From assembly GCF_002884495.1 (NCBI RefSeq), contig NZ_KZ614145.1, positions 3,114,423 through 3,178,422 of the forward strand: a stretch of DNA of 64,000 bases, in the 5' to 3' direction. Source of the stretch: Rummeliibacillus pycnus (GTDB lineage: Bacteria > Bacillota > Bacilli > Bacillales_A > Planococcaceae). The notes beneath the pieces are model-generated. The model was not told the origin of the DNA. It saw only the letters and a list, made by a program, of their open reading frames with translations, and searched no databases. A program made the position numbers and the translations under genes. This document shows, one piece after another, positions 10,707 through 44,512 of this stretch. How positions within the stretch are numbered: the first letter of the stretch is position 1; each line of letters begins with the position of its first letter.

Positions 10707-10839
10707 TAAAAAGTAATTCCCATATGGAAAGCACATATGAACATAAAAATTTGGAAATAAGTTAAATTTATTTGCTTCTATGTATTTACTTTTTGGAAAA
10801 ATGAGAGTAGTATAACCTCACAAATTAAGTTTCATATTT

Positions 10840-10970
10840 CTAAATCGCTGAAGTGTAATTTCACGGGGGAACCAATTTTTGGGTTGTATAATTTACATCC
10901 TTGGGGTGAATCCTTTTATGGTAGGGCTACTCATGGCCCGAATCCGACAGCTAACCTCGTAAGCGTTATA
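10840..10970 (+). ncRNA. c-di-AMP (ydaO/yuaA-type) riboswitch
   Basis: The leader carries the conserved ydaO-type core: CGCTGAAG, then ACGGGGGAACCA, GGGGTGAATCC, GTAGGGCTACTC, CCCGAATCCGACAGCTAACC and a closing AAGCG (10961-10965), which can pair with the opening CGCT at 10846-10849. This class senses cyclic di-AMP and turns its gene off. It lies about 130 bases before kimA, a well-known target of the class, with a terminator between. Confidence 0.93.
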
Positions 10971-11007
10971 GGAGAAGAAAAATGGAGCTTGCTAGGCAAA
11001 CCAATAT

Positions 11008-18775: not shown

Positions 18776-18820
18776 AAAGCCCGAAAGACCACTGATTAAA
18801 TCAGTCATCTCCCAGGCTTT
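18776..18820 (-). terminator. Riboswitch-controlled terminator before ykkC
   Basis: On the minus strand AAAGCC pairs with GGGCTTT around an inner ACTGATT/AATCAGT helix, and a U run follows. The 5' arm overlaps the 3' end of the guanidine-I aptamer, as expected for a transcriptional on-switch. Confidence 0.85.
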
Positions 18821-18900
18821 TATCCTTCCGTGGCATAGCAACAATGCTATGTGATTTCTCTCGGACCAGACCAACTAATTGCGGAACCCTAGAAATCATT
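18805..18900 (-). ncRNA. Guanidine-I (ykkC-yxkD) riboswitch
   Basis: On the minus strand the leader reads ATTTCTAGGGTTCCGC, then GGTCTGGTCCGAGAGAAATC, a variable hairpin (CATAGC/GCTATG), and ACGGAAGGATAAAAGCC followed by GGGAGA. These are the conserved blocks of the ykkC-yxkD aptamer, which binds free guanidine. It directly precedes the paired SMR exporter genes. Confidence 0.95.
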
Positions 18901-18935
18901 GTCACTATTTAATTGTCTTTATCATAACAAATGAA

Positions 18936-43167: not shown

Positions 43168-43196
43168 TTAATTTTCAGTCTATTTATTGACAACTT

Positions 43197-43225
43197 GGAT
43201 CATTACCTTTAAATTAATACTTGTA
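43197..43225 (+). promoter_or_regulatory. Promoter of the T-box leader
   Basis: TTGACA (43197-43202), 17-nt spacer and TAAATT (43220-43225) place the transcript start just before T-box stem I. Confidence 0.75.
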
Positions 43226-43231
43226 AATAAT

Positions 43232-43480
43232 AAAAGCGATGATGAGAAAAAGTAAAATGAACGTATTTCTAAAAGAGAGCTTCGGTAGCTGAAAAGAAGT
43301 AGAAATTCATCATTTGAAAAATGGCCTCTGAGCTCCGTTTTGAACATGCATTGGCATTAGTAGGATGCGGCGGGACTTGATACCCGTTATCTATATCACA
43401 GTCTAGGAAGCATTTAATTTTCTGCACTGATAGAGGCTACTTGTGCGAATAAGTAGTGAATAAAGGTGGTAACACGAGAA
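43232..43480 (+). ncRNA. T-box leader, probable methionine (ATG) specifier
   Basis: Stem I begins with GATGATGAGAAAAAGTA; the conserved AGAGAGC, GGTAGCTG and a closing CTCTGAGC follow. The position of the specifier in stem I reads GAAAA-ATG-GCC, so ATG (43321-43323) followed by a purine is the best candidate. Stem II has CGGG/CCCG around CTTGATA, stem III is CTACTT/AAGTAG, and the T-box itself is AAAGGTGGTAACACG (43462-43476). The TGGT bulge would pair with a tRNA ending ACCA, as tRNA-Met does. Confidence 0.88.
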
Positions 43481-43485
43481 TACAT

Positions 43486-43530
43486 CTCGTCCTTTACAAT
43501 CATTTGGTTGTAAGGGACGGGATTTTTTAT
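43486..43530 (+). terminator. T-box controlled terminator
   Basis: CTCGTCCTTTACAA pairs with TTGTAAGGGACGGG, followed by ATTTTTT. The 5' arm competes with the antiterminator that carries the T-box sequence. Confidence 0.93.
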
Positions 43531-43574
43531 TAGTAACAGTCCTAGGCAATATATTCAATGAGGAGATGTTTCAA

Positions 43575-44435
43575 ATGGCAAAAGGTTTACTAGTATTTCA
43601 ATCTGATTTTGGCATAAGTGATGGAGCAGTTAGTGCAATGTATGGAGTAGCACATAGTGTAAATCCTGAATTGAAGATATATGATATAACACATCAAATT
43701 CCACAGTTTAGTATTTGGGAAGGAAGCTATCGTCTATTACAAACCGTGCAATATTGGCCAGAAGGTACCGTTTTTGTTTCTGTAGTAGACCCTGGTGTTG
43801 GATCGGATCGTAAAGCTGTTGTTGTCAAAACTGTAAATGACCAATATATTGTAACGCCTGATAACGGAACATTGACACATGTCAAACGTTATTATGGCAT
43901 TGCAGAAATTCGAGAAATCGATGAAACCATTAATCGTCTTCCGAATTCAGGTGAATCACATACATTTCATGGTCGAGATATTTTTGCCTATACAGGAGCG
44001 CGCCTAGCTTCAGGAGTAATAACATATGAACAAGTTGGACCGTCTTTAAAAGTTTCAGATATAGTAGAACTTCCTTTAAAAGAATCCACAATAGAAGAAG
44101 GCGTCATTACAGGAATCATTGATATTGTAGATAAACCTTTTGGAAATCTGTGGACAAATGTCCGTCGTAGTCAATTTAAGCGCATAGCAAAAAACTACGG
44201 AGATGCTTTCGAAGTAACTATTAGTACAGATCATCGTAAAATTTACCAAAGTATCATGACATATGGTCATTCTTTTGCCGATTTAAGGATAGGCGAGCCC
44301 CTTCTATATATTAATTCGTTAGACAATATTGGTATTGCCATTAACCAAGGTTCTTTTGCAGAAGCATATCACGTGGGTACAGGTACTAATTGGGAAGTAT
44401 CAATCCGCAAAGCACCGAAAATTATCTATATTTAG
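43575..44435 (+). CDS. S-adenosylmethionine hydrolase (DUF62 / SAM hydroxide adenosyltransferase)
   Basis: A 286-residue protein of the fluorinase/DUF62 family, whose common members split S-adenosylmethionine with water into adenosine and methionine. The hydroxide-activating triad is present with the right spacing: Asp72 and Arg79 in VVDPGVGSDRKA, and His132 in FHGRDIFAY. The N-terminal QSDFGISDGAV binds the adenosine part, and the C-terminal VGTGTNWEVSI is usual. GAGGAG abuts an upstream ATG, so ATG 43575 is the start. The Met-type T-box in front suggests induction when charged tRNA-Met is scarce, so the enzyme would return Met from SAM. Confidence 0.9.
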   Translation: MAKGLLVFQSDFGISDGAVSAMYGVAHSVNPELKIYDITHQIPQFSIWEGSYRLLQTVQYWPEGTVFVSVVDPGVGSDRKAVVVKTVNDQYIVTPDNGTLTHVKRYYGIAEIREIDETINRLPNSGESHTFHGRDIFAYTGARLASGVITYEQVGPSLKVSDIVELPLKESTIEEGVITGIIDIVDKPFGNLWTNVRRSQFKRIAKNYGDAFEVTISTDHRKIYQSIMTYGHSFADLRIGEPLLYINSLDNIGIAINQGSFAEAYHVGTGTNWEVSIRKAPKIIYI

Positions 44436-44472: not shown

Positions 44473-44512
44473 AAAGATTTGACCAAAATATAGCTTGGTC
44501 AAATCTTTTTTT
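44473..44512 (+). terminator. Terminator after the SAM hydrolase gene
   Basis: A 14-bp perfect stem (44473-44486 with 44495-44508), 8-nt loop, then a T run. Confidence 0.93.

Follow-up and report, generated by a model that had tools for sequence, protein, structure and literature searches.

A methionine T-box in front of the gene for a predicted S-adenosylmethionine hydrolase in Rummeliibacillus pycnus and related Bacilli

Met T-boxes were described in 2013 as rare among Bacillales (PMC3771891). A Met T-box was earlier listed for Listeria in front of lmo2587, the product of which was called "Met related cytosolic hypothetical" (Wels 2008, PMC2494555, Table 2); the table of PMC3771891 gives a count of zero for L. 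monocytogenes. If lmo2587 is a DUF62 gene, one case of the pairing considered here was in print in 2008, with the enzyme unnamed. In DUF62 proteins, an Asp-Arg-His triad has been tied to the hydrolysis of S-adenosylmethionine (SAM) (PMC4859513). In 2025 the purpose of this reaction was called unknown, and repair of a SAM epimer was doubted as the physiological role of StDUF62 (PMC12120602). In Streptococcus pneumoniae, expression of the hypothetical gene spd-0431 rises when methionine is absent, with CmhR as its activator, and spd-0432 (hypothetical) and spd-0434 (ABC ATPase) rise as well (PMC5359408). In Staphylococcus aureus, one table of induced genes lists metN2 together with a gene annotated as SAM hydroxide adenosyltransferase (PMC9796851). 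In Escherichia coli, SAM degradation has been proposed to derepress the MetJ regulon (PMC7877911). A search of open-licence PMC articles yielded no paper linking DUF62 to a T-box, though the pairing may be contained in a table of a paper outside this collection.

We analysed a stretch of 64,000 nucleotides from the R. pycnus contig NZ_KZ614145.1, further referred to as the window. A preliminary description made from its letters had proposed that a Met T-box acts on a DUF62 SAM hydrolase gene, and our results support this interpretation. The best explanation, to which we assign a probability of about 0.6, is that the Met T-box controls a cytosolic SAM hydrolase that would free methionine from the cell's own SAM. 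Relatives were taken from a sample of 200 genomes of the same family, from a sample of 398 genomes of the class Bacilli (four genomes are common to both), and from a contig search that provided 61 DUF62 loci. Rfam models were run on all loci of the family and class samples and on 7 of the 61 contig-search loci; the remainder were scanned by motif. The features of the locus are listed in Table 1.

Table 1. Features of the DUF62 locus of R. pycnus (positions in the window)
Feature	Position	Strand	Basis
Promoter-like site TTGACA-17-TAAATT	43187..43215	+	Consensus scan, 10/12
T-box leader, stem I to antiterminator	43230..43497	+	RF00230, 115.9 bits, cut-off 93
Specifier codon ATG (Met), followed by G43324	43321..43323	+	Rfam alignment; conserved in leaders of relatives
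Antiterminator, two helices around the T-box bulge	43461..43498	+	Paired cells and covariation in 28 leaders
TGGT of the T-box bulge, predicted to pair with ACCA of uncharged tRNA	43467..43470	+	Sequence; ACCA ends of the CAT-anticodon tRNAs of the genome
Intrinsic terminator hairpin, 5' arm common to the antiterminator	43484..43523	+	18 pairs, then T run
DUF62 / SAM_HAT protein, predicted SAM hydrolase (adenosine-forming), 286 aa	43575..44435	+	Pfam, triad, solved relatives
Terminator-like hairpin 3' of the DUF62 gene	44473..44508	+	14 pairs, then TTTT

The Rfam covariance-model search confirmed that the T-box in front of the DUF62 gene is real: RF00230 was matched over the full model (1–219) with E 5.9e-25, and 77 nt separate the leader from the DUF62 start. 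The statement that the leader has all T-box parts holds, the terminator and a covarying antiterminator included. The T-box sequence GGTGGTAACACG begins at 43465. The family and class samples together contain 41 T-box leaders, of which 30 were folded and 28 (27 distinct) were aligned for the analysis of covariation. Folding of the terminator region in these 30 leaders gave −19 to −33.5 kcal/mol. In the alignment, 88.6% of antiterminator cells are paired, compared with at most 52.8% in controls where the antiterminator was slid by up to 3 columns. Cells with a double change number 26 versus 11.8 in shuffled alignments, none of 500 shuffles being as high, whereas two other measures are not above the shuffles (pairs with a double change, 232/500; further pair types, 438/500). 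The slid control is the stronger one, since shuffling keeps columns and not relatedness. Hence the hairpins, the folds and the covariation all point to a mutually exclusive antiterminator and terminator. The promoter-like site is weak when taken alone, as the scan gave 9 sites in the region with 6.1 expected; TTGAC is present at the matching distance in 17 of the 20 family-sample leaders. No SAM-I riboswitch (RF00162) was found anywhere in the window at the gathering score, the region upstream of the DUF62 gene included.

The preliminary description had left it to a survey of DUF62 genes whether the pairing recurs and whether the T-boxes share a Met specifier; both answers are positive. DUF62 (PF01887) is present in 20 of the 200 family-sample genomes, a count that we enter against the best explanation, and in all 20 a T-box over the Rfam cut-off with an ATG specifier lies upstream (the leader of L113 was read by eye). 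In the class sample, DUF62 occurs in 51 genomes. Twenty-five of them carry the T-box motif, about 95–175 bases upstream of where the domain match begins and with ATG in every case; they come from eight families (f1, f2, f14, f16, f40, f41, f51 and f54). Eleven of these leaders score above the Rfam cut-off, and the other 14 (13 from f16) were called by motif and alignment. The remaining 26 of 51 genomes have no T-box upstream of DUF62 by motif or Rfam, which also counts against the best explanation. Among the 61 contig-search loci the motif was found in ten, namely nine Planococcaceae-like loci, at least three of which are the same contigs as family-sample loci, and one of Jeotgalibaca caeni, again with a Met specifier. 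An unchanging specifier in eight families of Bacilli suggests when the enzyme may be wanted, that is, at methionine shortage.

A tree was built for 85 DUF62 proteins, ten near-copies having been dropped from a set of 95. The presence of a T-box requires 4 changes on this tree, compared with 28.6 for shuffled labels, and at least two changes are forced by well-supported branches. Two Sporosarcina loci, L041 and L043, retain the DUF62 gene, the start of the leader and a terminator hairpin, but most of the T-box is gone; on the tree both fall within the T-box group. While these losses weigh against the best explanation, the small number of changes and the nested position of both loci argue for an old, inherited association of T-box and DUF62 with some losses.

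Several loci deviate from the common arrangement. The leader of L036 has an ATG specifier and a damaged antiterminator motif, and gives no Rfam match at the cut-off. The DUF62 gene of L123 contains an internal TAA stop and is apparently a decaying copy. In J. caeni, a second T-box (L051:1182-1426) lies about 2.5 kb upstream of that of DUF62, and in L143 a SAM-I riboswitch (2482-2583) follows the T-box-led DUF62 gene, ahead of another gene. The DUF62 region of L039 (NZ_JADHDX010000003.1, titled Arthrobacter beigongshangensis) is Sporosarcina-like, so that the title is probably a naming error. The f16 loci, with a T-box and ECF genes, lack the presumed neighbours of lmo2587. Judging by its neighbours, spd-0431 may be a streptococcal DUF62 gene. 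At T-box-negative DUF62 loci, 4 matches to the CmhR site (up to 3 mismatches) were found in 89,436 bases versus 3 for the reversed pattern; three of the four lie at −106 to −117 from the locus reference point (L144, L148, L157), and the matches are suggestive by position only.

Both Pfam domains of the family are found in the window protein well above their cut-offs: SAM_HAT_N (PF01887) with E 4.6e-53 and 179.3 bits (cut-off 26.3) and SAM_HAT_C (PF20257) with E 2.4e-22 and 79.5 bits (cut-off 25.5). Among solved structures, 2zbu (E 1.7e-43) and PH0463 (2wr8; E 1.2e-34) are relatives. The gene likely starts at ATG 43575 and not at ATG 43566, given that GAGGAG at 43560-43565 is well spaced, 9 nt upstream of the former, whereas the latter abuts this ribosome-binding site. 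Counted from this start, D72, R79 and H132 are intact, as had been proposed. Family membership and the intact triad make SAM cleavage by the protein likely. The triad was also examined in 95 relatives, comprising 65 of the 67 family- and class-sample loci L095-L161 and 30 of the 61 contig-search loci (L123, with its internal stop, and L161, a partial match, were left out, and one of the two copies of L115 was used). Asp and Arg are present in 95/95 and His in 93/95; the two exceptions, L143 (Tyr) and L153 (Phe), are stand-alone, T-box-led members and count against the best explanation, as does the distance of the window protein from the curated (R)-SAM hydrolase equivalogs NF058624 and NF053629 (142.6 vs the cut-off of 350 and 139.3 vs 470). 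The protein also misses the cut-off of the fluorinase model TIGR04507 (116.6 vs 400), and has the hydrolase triad instead. Its N-terminus, MAKGLLVFQSDF, shows no signal-peptide-like extension. With the DUF62 protein of Rummeliibacillus sp. POC4 it shares 89% identity. The unit appears to be monocistronic, since a terminator-like hairpin follows the gene.

The R. pycnus genome (3.85 Mb, one contig) contains 25 T-boxes at E ≤0.001, 21 of them over the cut-off. Two are read as Met, those before metG and DUF62; the others were read by eye together with the gene behind, with no formal assignment. Eight SAM-I riboswitches were found, and seven of them lead methionine or SAM genes. The genes behind the eight are metA, a MetI-type PLP gene, homocysteine synthase, homocysteine methyltransferase/MTHFR, two MetN-like genes (which score below the NCBI cut-off), an OsmC-like gene and metK. 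Two further riboswitches were noted in the window, a c-di-AMP (ydaO) riboswitch at 10836-10981 on the plus strand (95.3 bits) and a Guanidine-I riboswitch at 18807-18903 on the minus strand (85.1 bits).

According to the best explanation, the anticodon of uncharged tRNA-Met would pair with the specifier ATG and its ACCA end with TGGT of the bulge. This pairing would stabilise the antiterminator, the terminator would not be formed and the DUF62 gene would be transcribed. The enzyme would then split SAM into methionine and adenosine, and the methionine would go back to translation. Falling SAM should also lift SAM-I repression, as most SAM-I riboswitches of this genome precede genes of methionine synthesis and uptake and metK. 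A precedent for this last step is the derepression of the MetJ regulon that has been proposed for SAM-degrading phage enzymes (PMC7877911). A point against the scheme is its cost, as the ATP that metK invested in SAM is lost on hydrolysis.

The main rival concerns the origin of the SAM. It holds that the module under the Met T-box imports external SAM or a related adenosyl sulfonium through a dedicated ECF transporter, with DUF62 hydrolysing it to methionine in the cytosol, that exported DUF62 proteins act outside the cell, and that the stand-alone gene of the window is a reduced version. The gene neighbourhoods of relatives speak for it. Downstream of DUF62, 39 of the 51 class-sample and 6 of the 20 family-sample genomes encode an ECF-transporter S component (that of L118 belongs to PF07155, E 3.5e-49), an association that is new here, and an S component is near DUF62 in 16 of the 61 contig-search loci, including those of Oscillospiraceae and Treponema. 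An ECF ATPase is also found downstream in the stretch examined in 29 of the 39 class-sample and all 6 family-sample loci. Thus the ECF genes behind DUF62 in most Bacilli examined suggest a partner of the enzyme, an importer. On the other hand, the ten S-component loci without an ECF ATPase in this stretch all belong to one family, f26, and make up 10 of its 14 loci, and the S component is linked to DUF62 equally often whether a T-box is absent (20/26 class-sample genomes) or present (19/25).

Another argument for external SAM comes from Bacteroidota, where DUF62 proteins have a signal-peptide-like N-terminus in 24 of 24 loci when the first ATG is taken and in 23 of 24 with the best ribosome-binding site (L059-L070, L072-L075, L077, L079-L082, L084, L088 and L092). 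These proteins may hydrolyse SAM outside the cytosol. The call is made by a hydrophobicity rule, which, when the first ATG is taken, marks L035, L039 and L093 as well, although no such stretch is present with their better start; this weakens the argument. No S component was found in the 24 loci, several of which are short. In L162 (the same place as L115), two DUF62 genes stand in tandem, one with a lipoprotein-like and the other with a signal-peptide-like N-terminus, so both copies look exported. The S-component linkage and the exported-looking relatives are therefore counted against the best explanation. They make salvage of external SAM a serious alternative at the family level, and the DUF62 family may handle external SAM too.

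For the window itself, the evidence runs the other way. No ECF S component (PF07155) is linked to its DUF62 gene, and a search of the R. pycnus genome with the L118 protein gave no ortholog of the DUF62-linked S component and nothing at E 1e-5. Five PF07155-like S components are encoded elsewhere in this genome, three over the cut-off; the best one shares 29% over 80 residues with that of L118. Any of the five might serve, which again counts against the best explanation. The same search in 16 genomes with a stand-alone DUF62 gene and a T-box found no DUF62-linked S component in 15 of them and one located elsewhere in the sixteenth, G051; the positive control, G152, whose DUF62 operon includes the S component, was recovered. 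Met control of the hydrolase thus persists where that importer is missing, and this we count for the best explanation. In G051, as judged by eye, the lone DUF62-type S component (L176) stands behind a T-box-like 3' remnant and a terminator, downstream of an SsuD-like gene. Also counted in favour are the neighbours of DUF62 in f26: in 6 of 14 genomes of this family, none of which has the T-box, DUF62 is preceded on its own strand by a gene of 195–198 codons and, before that, by one for a MetI-like methionine permease, with short gaps. The best NCBIfam match of the permease is methionine permease MetI, the cut-off of which (212) is narrowly missed at 189.4 bits.

Taken together, these data make salvage of external SAM rather unlikely as the account of this locus. 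Given that the genome has no DUF62-linked S component, the simplest account of the locus is that the cell draws on its own SAM. A further reading joins the T-box and the SAM-I riboswitches in one relay, in which undercharged tRNA-Met acts through the T-box on the SAM hydrolase, yielding methionine and less SAM-I ligand, while the ECF transporter of relatives would import SAM or a close analogue. We regard this relay as possible, though on balance doubtful. If it is true, a cell low in methionine and high in SAM has a way to escape, and the ECF transporter of the relatives gives bacteria an import route for SAM, or for a closely similar compound, as a methionine source. The debated role of DUF62 becomes testable, and a substrate class is suggested for the DUF62-linked ECF transporter.

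A different role has been considered for the enzyme, removal of the non-biological (R,S)-SAM epimer, with methionine control reflecting no more than the recovery of its methionine. StDUF62 prefers (R,S)-SAM (PMC10491745, PMC12120602), and the NCBIfam models nearest to the window protein are named (R)-SAM hydrolase. Yet the latter paper itself doubts such a physiological role for StDUF62, and neither the position of a housekeeping repair enzyme behind a methionine-starvation switch with a conserved specifier nor its position beside importer genes would be expected. Epimer repair explains the methionine control poorly, and we consider it improbable.

More improbable still is that the enzyme releases methionine from a compound other than SAM, be it a sulfonium or an adenosyl compound. 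Such a possibility is consistent with the low scores against the curated (R)-SAM hydrolase equivalogs and with the statement in PMC12120602 about the purpose of SAM hydrolysis; the triad and the family match to SAM hydrolases argue against it, the triad being tied to SAM hydrolysis (PMC4859513).

The remaining question is which tRNA is sensed. The specifier loop reads TGAAAAATGGCCTC, where ATG and AAT overlap. The base before ATG is mostly A in the family sample, with G in L096, C in L111 and T in L112, and it is C in L042 as well. Where CCA is encoded, the CAT-anticodon tRNAs of the R. pycnus genome terminate in ACCA, while GCCA forms the end of its tRNA-Asn, so that tRNA-Met has A73 and tRNA-Asn has G73. 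An Asn switch, for which the window's GAA-AA-ATG-G leaves AAT within reach of the loop, can practically be dismissed, since A, C, G or T in the preceding position of relatives alters AAT and never ATG, and since the GCCA end of tRNA-Asn does not fit TGGT. Both proposals of the preliminary description on this point, an ATG specifier followed by a purine and a TGGT bulge suited to tRNA-Met with A73, agree with these data: the specifier is ATG in the Rfam alignment and is kept in relatives, the next base is G, and TGGT matches the ACCA end. A preference for initiator tRNA was reported for the met T-box of S. aureus (PMC3771891). The bulge TGGTAAC gives no sign of it, since TGGT is followed by an A, for which A72 of the initiator would be no pairing partner; this is no proof.

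The DUF62 hydrolases PH0463 and StDUF62 have in common with the window protein both Pfam domains and the Asp-Arg-His triad. The window gene differs in lying behind a Met T-box, while the passages on those two enzymes in the papers cited do not mention methionine-responsive control. From the curated (R)-SAM hydrolases the protein differs in scoring below the NCBIfam equivalog cut-offs. The phage SAM lyases Svi3-3 and T3 SAMase also lower SAM, and rescue in E. coli is explained by MetJ derepression; they differ in having a PII-like fold and in producing MTA and homoserine lactone and no methionine (PMC7877911). The order of spd-0431, spd-0432 and spd-0434 resembles that of DUF62 and the ECF genes, whereas spd-0431 is controlled by a protein and not by a T-box (PMC5359408). 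At lmo2587, as in the window, a Met T-box precedes the gene for a cytosolic protein, there a hypothetical one (PMC2494555). With the Met T-boxes of metG/metS and of S. aureus metICFE (PMC3771891) the leader has in common stem I, the ATG loop, the bulge and the alternative antiterminator and terminator, and R. pycnus itself has an ATG T-box before metG. The difference lies in the gene controlled, which in those cases makes, imports or charges methionine and here is predicted to degrade SAM.
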